Source of the DNA: Pseudidiomarina aestuarii
GTDB taxonomy: Bacteria > Pseudomonadota > Gammaproteobacteria > Enterobacterales > Alteromonadaceae
Reading direction: 5' to 3'
Assembly (NCBI RefSeq): GCF_003987355.1
Contig: NZ_PIPR01000001.1
Location: 1,736,001 to 1,800,000 of the forward strand
Length of the DNA: 64,000 nucleotides
Position 1 is the first letter of the stretch, and every line of letters begins with the position of its first letter. A program made the translations under genes and the position numbers. Of the stretch, positions 22,444 to 64,000 are shown in pieces. Under the pieces are notes generated by a model that ran no database searches, was not told the DNA's origin, and saw nothing but the letters and a program-made list of their open reading frames with translations.

Positions 22444-22542
22444 GGTGACCAGTGAACAGTAACTAGTGAAATGAAAATTCACTCTGCTCCTCGTCACTAT
22501 TTTTTATTGTTTTCTTTACTGTTTACTCTTCACTTTTTGCTG
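22444..22542. repeat. heptamer-array inverted repeat, copy 1 (GTGAAC type)
   Basis: Left arm of four heptamers from 22444 (GGTGACC, AGTGAAC, then AGTAACT, AGTGAAA). Right arm of four complementary-type heptamers from 22514 (CTTTACT, GTTTACT, then CTTCACT, TTTTGCT). About 42 bp lie between the arms. It fills the gap between the S9 peptidase start and the next glutathione transferase stop. Confidence 0.7.
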
Positions 22543-52420: not shown

Positions 52421-54562
52421 ATGATTTATCAGGGTGATAGCATTCGGGTCGACTTTATCGAAGACGGCATCGCGGATTTGCAATTCGCGGCGGCCGGTTC
52501 GGTTAATAAGTTTGACCAGAAAACCTTGGAAGAATTCAGTAATGCGCTGACAGCGCTTGCGAACACCAAAGATTTACGCGGTGTGATTGTCACCAGTAGC
52601 AAACCAACCTTTATTGTTGGTGCCGACATTACCGAATTTCTAACGCTTTTTGCCGACCTTGAGCAAACCAAGAAATGGGTTGCCATGGCCTCGCGGGTCT
52701 TCGATCAACTTGAAGATCTGCCAGTACCTACTGTTGCTGCCGTAACCGGCTTCGCTTTGGGCGGTGGGTGTGAAGCGACCCTCGCCTGTGACTACCGTGT
52801 TGCTGACACTACTGCAACTATTGGCCTACCAGAAGTGAAGTTGGGTTTAATCCCAGGGTTTGGTGGCACCATGCGTTTACCGCGCATCATTGGTCCAGAC
52901 AACGCTCTTGAGTGCATCACCACGGGCAAAAATAATCGTGCCGATGACGCATTGAAGCTTGGTTTAGTCGACTCCGTTGTGGCACCAGAGAAACTCCGTG
53001 ATGCCGCTTTAGCCATTGCTAAACAAGCGGCTGACGGTGACTTGAATTGGCAGGCGAAGCGCCAGCCAAAACTCGAGCCGTTAAAAGCCAACGATACCGA
53101 ATTAACGATGACGTTTGTCACCGCAAAAGCGATGGTCGCAGCCAAAGCGGGTAAACACTACCCTGCTCCTCATGCAGCTATCAAAGCCATTGAGCAAGGT
53201 GCACGCCACCATCGTGAAGAAGCCCTGAATGCTGAAAATGAAGCGTTTGTTGGCTTGACGCAGACTGATGCCTGCCGCGCGCAAGTCGGTATCTTCATGG
53301 CGGACCAAATGGTCAAAGGTAAAGCTAAGAAAGCTGCCAAAGTTGCGACTAAGGAAATTAAGCGCGCTGCCGTTCTTGGTGCGGGCATTATGGGTGGCGG
53401 TATTGCTTACCAGTCTGCCTATAAAGGCGTTCCTGTCGTCATGAAAGATATTCGCCAAGATGCTCTTGATTTAGGTATGAACGAGGCGAGCAAAATTCTC
53501 GGGAAGCTGGTCCAGCGCGGCAAAGTTGACCATAAGAAAATGGCGCAGGTATTGTCATCGATTACCCCCACGTTGCTTGATGAGAGCGTGAAGGATGTCG
53601 ATATTGTGGTTGAAGCTGTGGTTGAAAATCCGGATGTAAAAGGCAAAGTTCTGGCACAGATGGAAAGTGTGGTCGATGCGGACACGATTATCGTTTCGAA
53701 CACGTCAACTATCTCGATTGACCGCCTCGCGAAAAACTTGAAAGACCCATCGCGTTTCTGCGGCATGCACTTCTTTAACCCAGTGCACAAAATGCCATTG
53801 GTTGAAGTCATTCGTGGCGAAAAAACGTCTGATGAAACTGTTGCTGCAGTGGTTGCTTATGCGTCGCGCATGGGTAAAACCGCTATTGTTGTCAACGACT
53901 GCCCAGGCTTTTTGGTCAACCGCGTCTTGTTCCCATACCTAGCTGGCTTCGCTGGCATAGTTGACGAAGGCGTCGACTTTGCCGGTATCGATAAGGTCAT
54001 GGAGCGTCAGTATGGTTGGCCCATGGGTCCAGCGTATCTGTCAGACGTAGTCGGCATTGATACTGCAGACCACTGTACCGTGGTCATGGCAGACGGCTTC
54101 CCATCACGGATGCCTCGTGGTGAAAACAGCGCGATTGCGAAATTGGCAGCTGCCGAACGCTACGGTCAGAAGAATGGCAAAGGCTTCTACAATTATGGTG
54201 TGGACAAGAAAGGTCGCCCCACCAAAGAGAAAGCCCCAGAAGTTTACGAAACGCTTGGAATCAGTGGTAAAGAGCTCAGCGCCGACGAAATTATTGCGCG
54301 CTGCATGGTACCAATGGTCAATGAATGCGTGCGTTGCCTTGAAGAAGGTATCGTCGCTTCTGCTGCCGAATGCGATATGTCGCTGCTGTACGGTCTTGGC
54401 TTCCCGCCATTCCGTGGTGGTCCATTCCGGTATCTCGAGACCATGGGCTTAGCCAAATTCGTTGAATTAGCCGATAGTTATGCGCACTTAGGTGAAATGT
54501 ATCAAGTGACCGATGGCTTACGCGAAATGGCGAAGTCAGGTAAATCGTACCTTGCGGGCTAA
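52421..54562 (+). CDS. fadB: fatty-acid oxidation complex, alpha subunit
   Basis: A 713-residue bifunctional protein. The N-terminal enoyl-CoA hydratase/isomerase domain (about 1-190) has [26 protein letters not shown] and [14 protein letters not shown]. The C-terminal 3-hydroxyacyl-CoA dehydrogenase domains (about 310-713) have [10 protein letters not shown] (NAD site) and [15 protein letters not shown]. It forms the soluble beta-oxidation complex with FadA, 21 bp downstream. Confidence 0.97.
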
Positions 54563-55747
<1,185 letters not shown>

Positions 55748-55754
55748 TTCCTCG

Positions 55755-55836
55755 AGTAAACAGTGAATGGTGAACAGGTAATAGGAAAACAGAGTAAGTG
55801 GGTCTTCTGTTCTCTATTTACCGTTCACTGGTCACT
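55755..55836. repeat. heptamer-array inverted repeat, copy 2 (GTGAAC type)
   Basis: The left arm from 55755 has five heptamers (AGTAAAC, AGTGAAT, then GGTGAAC and two degenerate units). The right arm ends at 55836 and reads, on the minus strand, AGTGACC, AGTGAAC, then GGTAAAT, AGAGAAC. It directly abuts copy 3. Confidence 0.7.
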
Positions 55837-55957
55837 CGCTACTGGCTATTGGTTACTCGTTACTGGAAGAGCTCAGAATTGGGCTCTTTTTATGTCTGGC
55901 TACTAGAAAATCTCGATCTAAGCACTTCTAGTAGCCAATAACTAATAGCTAATAGCG
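55837..55957. repeat. heptamer-array inverted repeat, copy 3, enclosing a terminator
   Basis: The left arm 55837-55869 and the right arm 55925-55957 are both 33 nt and match at 26 positions when inverted. Each has four heptamers of type NGYTAYT (left: CGCTACT, GGCTATT, then GGTTACT, CGTTACT). CTTTC follows the outer CG. The fadBA terminator lies between the arms. Confidence 0.75.
55868..55891 (+). terminator. fadBA terminator inside the repeat
   Basis: AGAGCTC/GGGCTCT form a 7-bp stem with one G-U pair and a 6-base loop, followed by TTTT. Confidence 0.65.
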
Positions 55958-55976
55958 CTTTCAGTCTTTTCCTCAA

Positions 55977-56006
55977 ATATTCCTTCCTATTCCTGAATAT
56001 TCCTGT
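55977..56006. promoter_or_regulatory. three TATTCCT repeats at exact 10-bp spacing
   Basis: TATTCCT starts at 55978, 55988 and 55998, that is, on one face of the helix, 64-90 bp before the membrane HTH gene. It is a candidate operator, perhaps for autoregulation. The rest of the 321-bp gap is filled by repeat copies 2 and 3. Confidence 0.45.
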
Positions 56007-56068
56007 TTTTATGTCTCTAAGAATAGCCAAGACTAAACTGGAATAATCAACCAGAAGGAATGGAAGCA

Positions 56069-56788
56069 ATGACCCTTGGTGAACTCCTCAAAGAAAAACG
56101 TATCGAACTGGATCGCAGTCAGGCAGAACTCGCTGAACAGATGGGAATTGAACAATCGTATCTATCCAAGCTCGAGAGCGACCGCTCACTACCCTCGACG
56201 GAAATTCTGAATGCTTGGCTCGGCGCTCTGGATATCACACTAGAATTTGTCATCGCCCAGTTTGACCCCAGTTATGTGCAAGGCCGACTCCGACAGATAC
56301 CCAGCGTAGATGCCTATCTGCGTGAGCAAACCTCATCCCATCATCGCCATCGCCGCTCATGGTTATTGACGTGTAGTCTACTGGTCGCACTCTCCGTGCC
56401 CCTTTTCTATCTCGGCTACACCAAGCTTCTATTCCCGGAGCAAGCCTACCAATACATCTCCCCCGGAATTCTATTACCAGGAGACAACCCAAATTTATTT
56501 AAGAATTGGCGGGAAATGCATTATATGCACGATGAAGTCATCGAGATGCAAAAGGAGATGGCAAAACGAGAAAATCCTGACACCTTAATATTGCCTGAAA
56601 ATCGCGGCATACAATTCACAATTCCAGCAAAAGAAGCAAATAACCCAGACTTTCAGCGCACTTATTACCGTTCTGGTAATGTTGAACAAATAAGGCCGAT
56701 CAATGGCATTCTGCAAGCTCTCGGCTTATTTCTGTTCGTCGGCGGAATTATCAGCATCGCAATCGAACGCCGCTTTTTCGCCAAATGA
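56069..56788 (+). CDS. membrane-anchored XRE-family regulator
   Basis: A 239-residue protein from the ATG 56069; an upstream in-frame ATG at 56060 lies too close to its AGAAGGA. The N-terminal Cro/CI HTH (about 5-62) has SQAELAEQMGIEQSYLSKLES. A transmembrane helix lies at about 96-116, followed by a periplasmic segment of about 95 residues with no domain known to me and a second helix (about 213-230). A cytoplasmic DNA-binding head on a membrane sensor suggests a one-component regulator. It stands alone between heptamer repeats. Confidence 0.85.
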   Translation: MTLGELLKEKRIELDRSQAELAEQMGIEQSYLSKLESDRSLPSTEILNAWLGALDITLEFVIAQFDPSYVQGRLRQIPSVDAYLREQTSSHHRHRRSWLLTCSLLVALSVPLFYLGYTKLLFPEQAYQYISPGILLPGDNPNLFKNWREMHYMHDEVIEMQKEMAKRENPDTLILPENRGIQFTIPAKEANNPDFQRTYYRSGNVEQIRPINGILQALGLFLFVGGIISIAIERRFFAK

Positions 56789-56807
56789 AGCTACTAGCTA
56801 AAACATT

Positions 56808-56896
56808 AAAAGCGTAAGTGGTTACTGGCTATTGGTTACTGGAAAATACAGATCGGGTTTTGCGAGTAACTAGTAGCCAATAGCCAATAGCGTTTT
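56808..56896. repeat. heptamer-array inverted repeat, copy 4
   Basis: It begins AAAAGCG (56808). The left arm is 56813-56842. The right arm 56863-56892 has AGTAACT (56865), AGTAGCC (56872), AATAGCC (56879) and AATAGCG (56886), and ends in TTTT. The 20-bp centre has no terminator. Confidence 0.75.
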
Positions 56897-56905
56897 CGGA
56901 GTTGG

Positions 56906-57157
56906 TTACTGCTTCCGGATGAGGTAACGATAAGGAGCAGCAGACGTCTCCGCCGCTAACAGCTCATGATCCATAAAGCGGCAGAAGCTTGGAATATCAC
57001 GCGTGGTGGCTGGGTCGTCAGCAACGACTTCTAGCACATCACCCACTTGCAGCTTACGAATAGCGACACGCACCAGCATCACCGGCTCTGGACAACGCAA
57101 GCCGAGCGTATCCAACGTTGAAGCTATATCTTGTTTCGGTAAGGTGCTGTCGCTCAT
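56906..57157 (-). CDS. tusA: sulfur carrier protein TusA
   Basis: An 83-residue protein started at the ATG 57157, after GAGGCGAG. The CPxP motif CPEP holds the sulfur-carrying Cys22, and the small alpha/beta fold ends in YRYLIRKQ. TusA accepts sulfur from IscS and passes it on for 2-thiouridine in tRNA. It is the only gene between two oppositely oriented repeat copies. Confidence 0.94.
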
Positions 57158-57179
57158 CTCGCCTCGATCCAACTAGAAA

Positions 57180-57266
57180 CACGCTACTAGCTATTGGCTA
57201 CTAGTTACTCGCAAACCACGATTGGCTCTTGTCTAGTAGCTAATATCCAGCAGCCAGTCACGCTTT
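57180..57266. repeat. heptamer-array inverted repeat, copy 5
   Basis: The left arm is CGCTACT (57182), AGCTATT (57189), GGCTACT (57196) and AGTTACT (57203). The right arm 57232-57262 is more degenerate and ends CGCTTTT. The left arm plus the following CGCAAA is an inverted near-copy of the right arm of copy 4. Confidence 0.75.
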
Positions 57267-57273
57267 TAGTTAT

Positions 57274-57753
57274 TTACAGGTACTTCTGCCAGAATTCTGC
57301 TTTGCCCATCGATGCGTCGAGTTGATAAGGTTTAAAGCCGAATTTTTCGTAGGCCAGTTTCGCTGGTTCGTTGCCTTGTAGAACCTCGAGTGTGAGCTTC
57401 ACGCAGCCACGGAATTCCGCCAGCGTTGCCACTTCATTGAGAAGCCGCTTAGCAATACCTTTGCCACGATGAGACTCGATAACAGCAATATCATGGATGT
57501 TCATGACTGGACGCGCGGCAAAGGTGGAAAACCCTTCAACGCAGTTGGCAATGCCAACTGGCTCGCCGTCATCAAATGCCAGAATTGAGAACACGTAGTC
57601 TCGCTTCGCCATTTCATCGACTAGATTTTCTTTGGTTGTTTCCGGAAGCGCTTCGCCGCCGCCCATGGGGTCACGTGCGTAATCGTCGAGCATGGCAACA
57701 ACAGCTTGGCGATGCTTCGGGTTTTGATAATCAGCTAAAGTAATTTCTAACAT
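57274..57753 (-). CDS. GNAT-family N-acetyltransferase
   Basis: A 159-residue acetyltransferase. The acetyl-CoA loop SHRGKGIAKRLL (near 95) and the downstream NEVATLAEF-type helix, with ALAYEKFGFKPY-like motif B (AKLAYEKFGFKPYQ), are clear. The substrate is unknown. The ATG at 57753 is preferred over a TTG 6 bp upstream, though no strong ribosome site is seen. Confidence 0.88.
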   Translation of the reverse strand: MLEITLADYQNPKHRQAVVAMLDDYARDPMGGGEALPETTKENLVDEMAKRDYVFSILAFDDGEPVGIANCVEGFSTFAARPVMNIHDIAVIESHRGKGIAKRLLNEVATLAEFRGCVKLTLEVLQGNEPAKLAYEKFGFKPYQLDASMGKAEFWQKYL

Positions 57754-57798
57754 AAGCAATGTTTCGAGTTCTCGTTAGTTATACGAATAATGGCTTTC

Positions 57799-58413
57799 TC
57801 ACAGTGAGAAATTACGCATTTCCCTGCACACAGGTTCGTAACAATGGCAGTCCACACGATGGTCGTTCACCATGCCTACCGCTTGCATAAATGCGTAACA
57901 AATAGTCGTGCCGACAAAATTGAAGCCCGCCTTTTTTAACGCTTTGGCCATGCTATCAGAAACCGCATCTGATGTCGGTATGTCATGCCCCTGTCGAGCG
58001 AAAATACGCGGCGTTCCATCGCTAAATTGCCATAAGAACTCGGCAAAATCCTGCCCTTTCTCTTGCATGGCAAGATACGCTCGAGCATTGCGAAAGATCG
58101 ATTCTATTTTCAGACGATTACGGACGATGCCTGCATTTTCCATCAATTCCAGCTTGTACGACTCGGGTAACTCGACAATTCGCTCGGGAACAAAGTCGGC
58201 AAAAGCGCGTTGATAGTTCGCTTGTTTCTTGAGGATTGTGATCCAGCTCAAACCAGCTTGCTGACCATCAAGACAGAGCTTTTCAAAGAGTTCGCGAGAG
58301 TCGGCAACCGGCCGCCCCCACACCTCATCGTGATAAGCCACATATTGCGGGTCAGAGCCACACCAACTGCAGCGGGTCTTGTTATCGTGGTCGTTGGGTT
58401 TTGTCATTTGCAT
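57799..58413 (-). CDS. tag: DNA-3-methyladenine glycosylase I
   Basis: A 204-residue base-excision-repair enzyme that removes 3-methyladenine. The zinc site starts with CSWCGSDP and ends with [12 protein letters not shown] His/Cys residues (DCHCYE). [25 protein letters not shown] and [16 protein letters not shown] are typical. AGGA precedes the ATG. It diverges from glyQ. Confidence 0.95.
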
Positions 58414-58443
58414 GGTATCCTGTAACCGAGCGTCAACACAGGG

Positions 58444-58449
58444 TATAAT
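58444..58449 (+). promoter_or_regulatory. -10 box of glyQS
   Basis: TATAAT lies 40 bp before the glyQ start; only a weak -35 (TGTAAC) stands at 17 bp. Confidence 0.55.
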
Positions 58450-58489
58450 TTACGCCACTTTATTAGAAAAAACAGCGCGAGATCACCGC

Positions 58490-59395
58490 ATGGCCAGCTA
58501 CGATGTAAAAACCTTTCAAGGGCTCATCCTAGCGCTCCAAGATTATTGGGCGCAACAAGGATGTGCAGTAGTACAACCCCTGGATATGGAAGTGGGTGCC
58601 GGTACCTTTCATCCCATGACCTTTTTGCGTGCCGTTGGCCCAGAGCCAGCGAGTTTTGCGTATGTGCAGCCATGCCGCCGTCCGACCGATGGCCGCTACG
58701 GTGAAAACCCGAATCGACTCCAGCACTACTATCAGTTTCAAGTGATTTTGAAGCCGTCGCCGAGCAACATTCAAGATTTATATTTAGGCTCATTAAAGCT
58801 GCTGGGCTTCGACCCATTGGTACATGATATCCGGTTTGTTGAAGATAACTGGGAATCGCCCACGCTAGGCGCTTGGGGTCTTGGTTGGGAAGTTTGGCTC
58901 AATGGTATGGAAGTGACTCAATTTACCTACTTCCAACAGGTCGGTGGTCTCGAATGTAAGCCAGTTGCCGGTGAAATCACCTATGGTTTAGAGCGTCTAG
59001 CCATGTACATTCAAGGAGTCGATAGTATATATGACCTGGTTTGGACCGACGGCCCACGTGGCAAAATAACCTACGGCGACGTGTTCCATCAAAATGAAGT
59101 CGAACAGTCGACCTACAACTTTGAGTTCGCAGATACGAAAGTATTGTTTGACCGTTTTGATGCAGCCGAGTCGGAATGCCAGTTGCTACTGGAAAACAAT
59201 CTCCCATTACCCGCCTACGAGCAAGTGATGCGTGCATCGCATGCGTTTAACTTACTAGACGCGCGTCATGCGATTTCGGTAACTGAACGACAGCGCTACA
59301 TTTTGCGTGTGCGCACTATGGCAAAAGGCTGTGCCGAAGCTTATTACGCAGCGCGCGAAGCGCTTGGATTTCCTCTTGTTGAGCAAGGAGCTTAA
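58490..59395 (+). CDS. glyQ: glycyl-tRNA synthetase, alpha subunit
   Basis: A 301-residue class II synthetase subunit started at the ATG 58490 ([14 protein letters not shown]). It has [19 protein letters not shown] sequence ([16 protein letters not shown]), the motif 2 region [16 protein letters not shown] and GLERLAMY. It charges tRNA-Gly with the beta subunit, 3 bp downstream. Confidence 0.97.
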
Positions 59396-59398
59396 CCC

Positions 59399-61468
59399 GT
59401 GCAACATGACACTCTTCTTGTAGAAATTGGAACTGAAGAACTGCCACCGAAAGCACTGAAAGGGCTAAGCGAAGCGTTTACTTCTGGACTCACCGAATTA
59501 CTAAAGTCCAATGACTTTGCGTTTGGTGATGTGCGCCCTTTTGCGTCAGCTCGTCGCTTGGCAGTGCAGATCAAGAATGTCGCCGCGCAACAACCTGATA
59601 AAGTTGTTGAGAAGCGTGGACCGGCAGTCGAAATGGCGTTTGACGCCGATGGTCAACCGACCAAAGCAGCCCAAGGTTGGGCACGTGGGAATGGTATCGA
59701 TGTGAAGGACGCAGAGCGTCTAGTTACTGATAAAGGTGAGTGGCTGCTCTACAAAGCGGAACAAAAAGGCCAAAGCCTAGCGGCGGTATTGCCCGGTTTG
59801 GTAGCACAAGCTTTAAAGCAGCTCCCGATTCCAAAGCCGATGCGCTGGGGAAGTAGTGATGCGCAATTCATTCGCCCAGTACATACACTTACCATGCTTT
59901 ATGGCGACGCACTTATTGCCGGTGAAGTTCTGGAAATACAGTCTGGCACGCAATTACAGGGGCACCGATTCCATTGCCCAGAAGGCACGTCGATTAGTCA
60001 GGCCGATGACTATGAAGCAGTGTTGGAGAAAGCGTGGGTCATCGCCGACTTTGCGAAGCGTCGTGCTATCGTCAGTTCAAAAATTGAAGCCTTAGCGTCG
60101 GAGCTTGGTGGCCATGTTATTGCTGATGATGATTTGGTGGATGAAGTCACAGCTCTGGTTGAATGGCCTGTTGCGCTGTCAGCATCTTTTAATGAATCAT
60201 TTTTGGCAGTGCCAAAAGAGCCGTTGATTGTCACCATGAAAGACGACCAACGTTACTTTCCACTGCATGATGCAGAAGGTAACTTGCTGTCGAAGTTTAT
60301 TTTCATCACGAATATTGAAAGCAAAGATCCACAACAGATTATCTCTGGCAATGAGAAAGTCGTGCGCCCTCGCCTGGCCGATGCGCAGTTCTTCTTCGAA
60401 ACCGATAAGAAGGTTACGTTAGAGAGTCGACTGTCAGCACTTGATAATGTTCTATTCCAAAAGGACCTTGGGTCCATAAAAGCTAAAAGTGATCGGATTG
60501 CCCATGTGGCGGCTGCGATTGCTGCTCGCTTAAACGGTAAGAGTGACGTTGCCGAGCGTGCCGGCTTGCTGTGTAAAGCAGACCTTGGCTCACAAATGGT
60601 TCTGGAATTCCCAGAAACACAGGGCGTGATGGGTATGCACTACGCTCGCAACGATGGCGAAGCTGCGGGTGTTGCTGAAGCGATTTATGAGCATTATTTG
60701 CCGCGTTTTTCCGGTGATGCATTACCAGAGTCCATTGAAGGTGCAGCAGTCGCACTTGCTGATAAGCTCGACACCTTGGTTGGTATATTCGGTATTGGCA
60801 TGATTCCTAAAGGTGACCGTGACCCGTTCGCTTTGCGTCGTGCAGCTATTGGCTTGTTGCGAATCATTGTCGAGAAAAAGCTATCGTTGGATTTAGCTGA
60901 GTTAGTTAGCATTGCTAAAGATAGTTTTGGCAATTTACTGACTTCAGCCTCGGTCGAAAGTGATGTAGTTGATTTCCTGCTCGGTCGCTTCCGGTCGTGG
61001 TATCAGGAGCAAGGTATTAGCGTCGATGTGATTCAAGCGGTCCTCGCACGCCGACCAACGCGTCCGCTTGATTTTGATCGTCGCGTAAATGCCGTGACAG
61101 AGTTCCGCAAGCTTCCCGCGGCAGATGCTCTGGCAGCAGCAAACAAACGCGTTGGAAACATACTCGCCAAGGTCGACGGTTCCATCCCGTCCACGGTTGA
61201 TAAGGCGTTATTGACAGAATCTGCAGAGCTCGAGCTTTTCGATGCGCTAACAAGCGCGTCAGCACAAGCACAAGCTTCGCTAGCGGACAATGACTACACT
61301 GCTGCATTAACTGCTTTGGCAGCCTTACAGCAACCGGTAGATACCTTTTTTGACAATGTAATGGTAAATGCCGACGATGCGGCTGTACGCAGCAATCGTC
61401 AAGCACTGTTAGCGCAATTACGCGAGCAATTCCTACAAATCGCGGATATATCACTACTCAACGGCTAA
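59399..61468 (+). CDS. glyS: glycyl-tRNA synthetase, beta subunit
   Basis: A 689-residue protein, the exact E. coli length. The start is GTG 59399, 9 bp after AAGGAG, and reads [20 protein letters not shown], the conserved N-terminus. Later segments include [11 protein letters not shown] and [16 protein letters not shown], and the C-terminal anticodon-binding domain is present. It binds tRNA and supports GlyQ. Confidence 0.97.
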
Positions 61469-61474
61469 CTGCAG

Positions 61475-61586
61475 AAAGCGCCTTTAGCTACTGGTTACTC
61501 GCTACTAGCAAAAAGAAAGCCCTCGAAGAGCGAGGGCTTTTTTGTATTTACGCCGTTCTAATAGCTACTTGCCAGTAACCATTAAC
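61475..61586. repeat. heptamer-array inverted repeat, copy 6, enclosing a terminator
   Basis: It begins AAAGCG (61475). The left arm 61479-61508 is CGCCTTT, AGCTACT, then GGTTACT, CGCTACT and AG. The right arm (about 61557-61586) is AATAGCT, ACTTGCC, then AGTAACC, ATTAACG. The shared glyS/gyrB terminator sits between the arms. Confidence 0.72.
61511..61543. terminator. bidirectional terminator between glyS and gyrB
   Basis: AAAGCCCTCG/CGAGGGCTTT form a 10-bp stem with an AAGAG loop. TTTTTT follows on + and TTTCTTTTT on the minus strand, so it serves both convergent operons. Confidence 0.93.
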
Positions 61587-61596
61587 GATTTTCGAG

Positions 61597-64000
<2,404 letters not shown>

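Follow-up and report, generated by a model that had tools for sequence, protein, structure and literature searches.

Between fadA and gyrB, the window (the whole stretch of 64,000 nucleotides that was analysed, C1:1736001-1800000) carries an XRE-type gene, tusA, a GNAT-like gene and glyS, with palindromic arrays of tandem heptamers in the gaps. The genome that holds it, called G000 here, comprises 2,640,771 bases in 12 contigs and is 99.5% complete. An earlier note on this DNA had described six such elements, and all six places were found to hold heptamer arrays as described, in two unit types and as inverted pairs. Four copies are of type A, with the unit GYTAYTN (55837-55957, 56808-56896, 57180-57266 and 61475-61586; in their best register the arms deviate from the unit at 0 to 3 positions per four units), and two are of type B, with AGTRAAN, which the phase GTRAAYR fits too (22444-22542 and 55755-55836; 1 to 3 mismatches per arm in the best register). 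The parts of the elements are listed in Table 1. Between two of them, downstream of fadA, the gene at 56060-56788 encodes a helix-turn-helix protein of XRE type in which, as judged by eye, a membrane segment is likely.

Table 1. Heptamer elements of the window and their parts.
Position	Strand	Feature	Support
22444..22542	.	Type B element, GTRAAYR words, arms degraded	RNA fold -26.5 kcal/mol, z -2.85
55755..55836	.	Type B element: about four heptamers, core, inverted heptamers; lies 8 bp past the fadA stop codon	Fold z -4.71
55838..55865	+	Composite type A element 55837-55957, left arm, 4 x GYTAYTN	0 mismatches
55867..55891	+	Terminator-like hairpin AAGAGC..GCTCTTTTT between the arms of composite 55837-55957	Sequence reading; paired in the RNA fold; terminator scan without it
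55897..55937	+	Inner half element of composite 55837-55957: heptamer, core with GATCT, start of a right arm	
55929..55956	-	Composite type A element 55837-55957, right arm, 4 x NARTARC	0 mismatches
56808..56898	+	Canonical type A element, gap of convergent XRE-type gene / tusA; arms 56814-56841 and 56864-56891	82.4 bits with the covariance model (training-set member); fold z -6.66
57177..57268	+	Canonical type A element, gap tusA / GNAT-like gene; arms 57183-57210 and 57234-57261	75.2 bits with the covariance model (training-set member); fold z -2.00
61473..61593	-	Type A element around a terminator-like hairpin, gap of convergent glyS / gyrB; arms 61480-61507 and 61559-61586	45.8 bits with the covariance model
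61513..61543	.	Intrinsic-terminator-like hairpin, core of the 61473-61593 element	Terminator scan match

The arms noted for 55837-55957 and 61475-61586 were confirmed; the former element proved to be a composite that includes a half element, and the loop of the latter is an ordinary terminator-like hairpin. Folded as single-stranded RNA, the six copies gave z-scores of -2.0 to -7.4, as expected of inverted pairs. A terminator scan of positions 54500-62000 marked the core at 61513-61543 and gave 11 sites against 7.4 in shuffles, which is no clear excess; the two canonical type A elements (56808-56898 and 57177-57268) had no match in it. The earlier note recognised no named family, and we found none either: Rfam had no match in the window at the gathering score, and the literature searched, which covered few subscription journals, yielded no earlier description of heptamer-armed palindromes.

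The genome-wide search proposed in the earlier note showed that the arrays are commoner in G000 than in control sequence. Three-unit GYTAYTN arrays gave 374 overlapping matches (213 + 161) in 2.64 Mb and the reversed pattern gave none. Three-unit GTRAAYR arrays, representing type B, gave 22 matches (15 + 7), again with none for the reversed pattern, and this word in threes had no match in 25 congeners. When arrays were scored in 464 kb of G000 (the window together with 400 kb of stretches from along contig C1, one element being countable on both strands), 38 reached a score of 22, which no array attained in either of two first-order Markov shuffles. A score of 16 was reached by 73 arrays, against 19 and 26 in the shuffles. 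Near-perfect repeats with periods of 4 to 20 had their maximum at 7 (12 runs); those with periods of 6, 12 and 18 (8, 7 and 8 runs) fit codon periodicity. There is virtually no probability that chance or a compositional artefact explains the heptamer arrays, a reading refuted by the triples in forward and reversed pattern and by the shuffle controls.

A covariance model built from ten element copies (R2) marked 65 places in 34 G000 sources that had been picked for containing elements. In 20 stretches of G000 not picked for elements (400 kb, E up to 0.1), the model marked 17 places, 6 of which lie in one stretch, and scaling from this number gives a copy number of about 110 elements in G000, with a large error. 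A whole-genome scan with R2, in which 150 of 1454 candidates were scored, returned 147 matches on both strands together and is unusable as a count. The spread along contig C1 is uneven, with no model match in five 20-kb stretches (L046-L050, 1.445-1.925 Mb) and eight places in another (L155, 1.286-1.306 Mb).

In the common unit of about 80 bp, four heptamers are separated from four inverted ones by a core of about 22-31 bp, the ends of which are often an A-run and a T-run; about CAAAAGC precedes the first arm and about GCTTTTG follows the second. The core is exactly 23 nt long in 36 of the 62 G000 elements with well-fitting arms, and 33 such cores, once oriented, have the consensus GAAAAGCGTAGATCTGTGTTTTC; three of these 33 copies form one tandem, so that not all are independent. 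The rule of exactly four units per arm held as the mode (76 of 122 arms) and failed as a rule, since 39 arms have more units, up to 20, and 7 have fewer; arm extensions in this count are whole units by construction. Both arms have four units in 29 of 61 elements, long arms often repeat a single word, and the unit numbers of left and right arms are correlated (Spearman 0.48, p 0.0014, n=42). The outer ends AAAGCG and CGCTTT were likewise seen as a tendency, not as a fixed flank: a T-run of at least 4 lies within 12 bp outward of 34 of the 122 element ends, as compared with 4% of random positions. Runs of a third word, GTTATTC, GTTAATC or similar, were also noticed in G000 inside or beside type A arms (inside the loop in L289; also in L045 and at L155:2960).

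Arms were said in the earlier note to differ mostly by transitions, and most of the differences do involve position 7 or one of the two pyrimidine positions, 2 and 5. Among the 45 G000 elements whose cores measure 20-26 nt, heptamer positions 1 to 7 missed their commonest base in 0.3, 43, 7.2, 4.2, 37, 1.4 and 50% of cases, respectively, whereas at positions 6-18 of the 33 oriented cores it was missed in 9-48% (mean 23%). Word positions 1, 3, 4 and 6 are thus held more tightly than the core, and positions 2, 5 and 7 are nearly free. The conservation of word positions suggests that the word is read by something. Neighbouring units are slightly alike (5.20 versus 5.04 matches of 7, p 0.0005).

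The further proposal, that the hairpin survives these differences through G-U pairing, was rejected for G000. Arm-to-arm complementarity was 20.03 of 28 within an element and 20.22 between elements (n=62 of 65, orientations mixed). When the arms were oriented by the core, the values were 20.10 and 20.88 of 28 (n=39 of 45), and none, or almost none, among 5000 shuffles was as low; with clear-orientation elements alone (n=38), the lower tail was about 0.002. Arms detected by sequence alone gave 19.92 versus 20.49 of 28 (n=51, lower tail 0.006). Two arms of the same element therefore match no better, and when oriented match worse, than arms taken from different elements, and perfect palindromy may perhaps be avoided by G000 arms. 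The congener G010, in which the arm master is clear (GATATTA GCTATTR GATATTR GATATTA), showed a weak effect of the opposite sign (24.95 within elements versus 24.56 by chance, n=19, p 0.03). A model-picked set of mixed species also had the opposite sign (23.9 versus 22.4 for all 31 elements, 25.0 versus 23.7 for the 20 with loops of 20-32 nt); because the model rewards pairing and species are mixed, these figures were set aside and G010 alone was used for the congeners.

Placement relative to genes was determined in 27 G000 sources, which contain 40 of the 65 elements and in which a home-made codon-usage caller found 525 genes; two of the 40 were dropped, leaving 38 elements with called neighbours on both sides. 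That the copies are intergenic was borne out, as any overlap between one of the 38 and a called gene is 20 bp at most. Convergent gaps contain 14 of them, tandem gaps 22 and divergent gaps 2, and the median distance was 14.5 bp from a stop codon and 67 bp from a start. Among gaps of at least 75 bp, a limit biased toward gaps that an element itself lengthened, and with each gap counted once, elements occupy 11 of 19 convergent, 20 of 82 tandem and 2 of 67 divergent gaps (non-divergent versus divergent, p 2.6e-6). Over all 498 gaps the occupancies of 12/78, 20/343 and 2/77 do not differ significantly (p 0.14). The low occupancy of divergent gaps is not due to want of room, because element-free divergent gaps are the longest (median 132 bp, as compared with 19 bp for tandem and 12 bp for convergent gaps), and selection against promoter damage could account for the avoidance. 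Elements were also found inside operons, for example hscB-hscA-fdx. The placement at gene ends, together with the terminator-like cores, suggests that the elements have a function, or are at least tolerated, where transcripts end.

Heptamer arrays also occur in other genomes. GYTAYTN triples were found in 17 of 25 congeners and in 5 of 33 other genomes, and the covariance model matched in 19 of 26 Pseudidiomarina genomes, G000 included; a lack of model matches is not proof of absence, because the model carries the G000 word. Among 294 other genomes of the order, an exact four-unit match was present in 20, with at most 6 overlapping ones, as compared with 194 in G000. A wider contig scan gave at least 118 stretches, and inverted pairs were seen in 7 of the 80 examined, two of these being from Pseudidiomarina marina. 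In the Bacteroidota bin USDV_maxbin.037 (L176 and L188), GTTATTG-like arrays flank a core on both sides, the core of L188 being a terminator-like hairpin; this is possibly a convergent case in another phylum. The words of the congeners, read by eye at one or two loci per species, are GATATTR/GCTATTR (G010, G017, G019, G022, G023 and G024), GTTGTTT/GCTGTTY/GATGTTY (G004, G008, G016 and G018) and GTTATTC or GTTAGTC (G012), with mixed words in G002 and G003; their general form is G-N-T-R-N-T-N.

The earlier note had also proposed that empty and filled sites be compared in sister strains. Filled and changed sites were seen, but neither a clean empty site nor a target duplication was found in the two aligned species pairs (G008/G018 and G011/G019), the former pair being compared over about 176 kb at 94-96% identity. 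Nine of 11 array sites in G019 have orthologous flanks in G011; two carry the same element (inner identity 0.88 and 0.95), and seven differ (0.51-0.73, with flanks 83-99% identical), G011 having arrays of at least 2 units at 6 of the 7. Starting from G011, 3 of 6 sites are the same (0.89-0.95) and 3 are different (0.38-0.70), 2 of the latter with arrays in G019. Nine G008 sites compared with G018 comprise 3 that are alike (at least 0.83) and 6 that differ, 2 of these with arrays in G018, and seven G018 sites compared with G008 comprise 3 alike and 4 that differ, 2 with arrays in G008. In this pair most changed sites have no array in the partner species, and site persistence is less clear than between G011 and G019. 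Differences by 7-bp units were seen at three orthologous sites, two in G011/G019 and one in G008/G018, and at the tRNA-Trp/secE site of G008 and G018 several differences lie within the element, with about 140 bp or more identical on each side. Near the hisS end of the same pair (L136/L146), a coding end beside a half element diverges more than the alignment does elsewhere.

In five sister species, arrays were present in 12 of 37 orthologous gap-species pairs when G000 has an element in the gap and in 6 of 127 when it has none (p 2.4e-5). This excess leans on G010, in which 8 of 20 stretches had been placed over known matches; without G010 the proportions were 8/33 versus 6/117 (p 0.003); when shorter gaps than 60 bp were left out as well, they became 8/33 versus 5/50 (p 0.12). 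Sharing of sites across species is likely but not firmly shown, the excess being weak under these controls. The ndk-rlmN gap, picked for its G000 element, holds arrays of at least 2 units in 11 of 23 congeners, in several words and around either a REP (G011 and G019) or another hairpin. The hscA-fdx gap holds arrays in 4 of 22. In the remaining species these two gaps contain REP elements or nothing recognisable.

We searched for machinery that might copy the elements. G000 had no match to Y1_Tnp (PF01797), for which 5 of 14 control genomes were positive, and no match to the reverse transcriptase family RVT_1 (PF00078), for which 7 of the 26 genomes of the genus were positive. A Y1-type gene is present in 19 of the 26 genus genomes, 13 of which have both Y1 genes and covariance-model matches, and REP-like palindromes accompany at least 16 of 20 Y1 loci examined in congeners; no period-7 array was detected near the gene at any of these 20 loci at the threshold used. 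The palindromes at these loci (L060-L079) are of two kinds. One is the GTAGCCCG-type, which goes with open frames of 193-232 aa; the other, GGGGCAGCCCC or similar, goes with open frames of 237-311 aa (419 in one). Between neighbouring elements no transposase or autonomous parent was recognised by eye, the genes there being ordinary-looking, and a 116-base canonical-element query, run with the low-complexity filter on, had no blastn match in 72,556 plasmid and 50,697 phage records.

The small palindromic repeats REP and REPIN, the latter associated with RAYT proteins, are described in PMC3116915 and PMC3733652 as inverted, dispersed, species-specific, present in high copy and located mostly downstream of genes. 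The G000 elements resemble them in being small, palindromic, inverted, dispersed, species-specific, of high copy number and predominantly downstream of genes. In contrast, each arm is made of four 7-bp repeats where a REPIN has a REP singlet, the genome has no Y1 match, and no heptamer array was detected beside the 20 Y1 loci examined in congeners; the paired REP singlets of a REPIN, with a hairpin and a GTAG tag apiece, have no counterpart here as far as single-arm hairpins and tags can be judged by eye. MITEs such as ERIC, NEMIS, RUP and EFAR are 70-300 bp long, non-coding and intergenic with inverted ends (PMC3733652). Like these, the G000 elements are short, non-coding, intergenic and bounded by terminal inverted repeats, but neither a parent IS nor a target duplication was found, and the arms are heptamer arrays with a species word. 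With intrinsic terminators they share an A-run, a hairpin and a T-run at gene ends, and some cores are terminator-like hairpins; unlike terminators, they have long AT-rich heptamer arms outside the hairpin, and canonical copies were missed by the terminator scan (54500-62000). EFAR elements, for their part, are bidirectional terminators at gene ends. STRR are heptamer repeats of cyanobacteria, and the earlier note named them as the nearest analogy. They are an analogy and no more, and the TAACTGA repeats of Beggiatoaceae are nearer; PMC4679880 describes these as direct repeats (with one inverted case) of one fixed word, mostly just before start codons. The G000 elements differ from both kinds of direct tandem array in being inverted pairs, mostly behind stops, with variable positions 2, 5 and 7 and species dialects.

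The same design in congeners, with other words and at some common sites, points to a family of dispersed small elements that has not been described before. The reading we favour, tentatively, since we put it slightly short of an even chance, is that these are REPIN/MITE-like small dispersed palindromes of one genus, with slippage-prone heptamer arms around terminator-like cores at gene 3' ends. Copying is inferred because one core is common to many unrelated places. The elements would spread through a trans-acting factor that is neither a recognisable RAYT nor a reverse transcriptase in G000, and the heptamer array would be recognised, by the copying factor or by a resident protein, as a repeated sequence and not as a hairpin. 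At the RNA level the copies may be 3'-end hairpins or terminators, and because they would act as such, gene ends would tolerate or keep them.

Alternatively, the elements may have grown in place without any mobile element, a resident hairpin such as a terminator or REP seeding slippage and template switching that add heptamers on both sides, after which the words drift and are fixed in each species. We regard this as possible, if rather on the unlikely side. Different cores are indeed wrapped by the arms, including terminator-like hairpins (55837-55957 and 61473-61593; G010 and G023 at tusA/fadA) and the REP of the G011/G019 ndk-rlmN gap; length differences of whole units, the slight likeness of neighbouring units and the arrays in two contigs of the one Bacteroidota bin agree with it too. 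Growth of this kind, however, would not give one core common to at least 33 G000 copies at different places (three of them a tandem), and slippage alone leaves the fixed positions 1, 3, 4 and 6, as opposed to the variable 2, 5 and 7, unexplained. In another reading the arrays are operator-like, with a putative DNA- or RNA-binding protein that reads the word, dialects that follow the drift of its specificity, and arrays that are kept for regulation or chromosome organisation and do not move. This is an explanation we consider unlikely. It accords with the constraint in G000 on base identity instead of pairing, with words that vary by species while the architecture stays, and with the repeat-binding protein proposed for the TAACTGA repeats in PMC4679880. 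Two words coexist in G000, however, and 7 of 26 genomes have no model match, so that such a protein may be dispensable in the genus; two of the seven are less than 90% complete, and the model is built on the word of G000.

It is improbable, in our judgement, that the elements are degenerate REPINs that remained after loss of a RAYT. Y1-type genes and the REP-like palindromes at their loci are frequent in the genus, the genome richest in arrays is without a Y1 match, and the same gap can hold a REP or a heptamer element depending on the species. On the other hand, no tandem heptamer array was detected near the gene at the Y1 loci at the threshold used, the REPs at those loci (GTAGCCCG.. and GGGGCAGCCCC..) lack the heptamer grammar, and Y1 genes occur together with model matches in 13 genomes. 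Equally improbable is that the heptamer arms are a written address, in which a trans-acting system recognises or deposits 7-bp words, one for each species, on both flanks of palindromic cores at gene ends and exchanges cassettes in place; a site would then persist although close species trade its sequence, as at the G011/G019 sites. If true, this would mean that G000 has a system that moves or writes sequence and includes no RAYT or reverse transcriptase that can be recognised.

In many bacteria the ends of mRNAs are shaped by small palindromic repeats, of which REPINs are understood best. The family described here has a REPIN-like placement, no recognisable RAYT in the richest genome, a grammar that in G000 is kept in its bases instead of its pairing, and an architecture common to species that use different words. 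The 26 genomes with their several dialects constitute a natural experiment on the spread of such elements, on what reads them, and on whether gene ends attract insertions as hot spots or retain the elements for use. A second hairpin family, GTTCGTCCGCTTCGCTGTTCG-like, was also noticed in intergenic positions (L384-L407 and L110-L134); several of its members lie between short GTTATTC arms, and some congeners have it in the same gaps.
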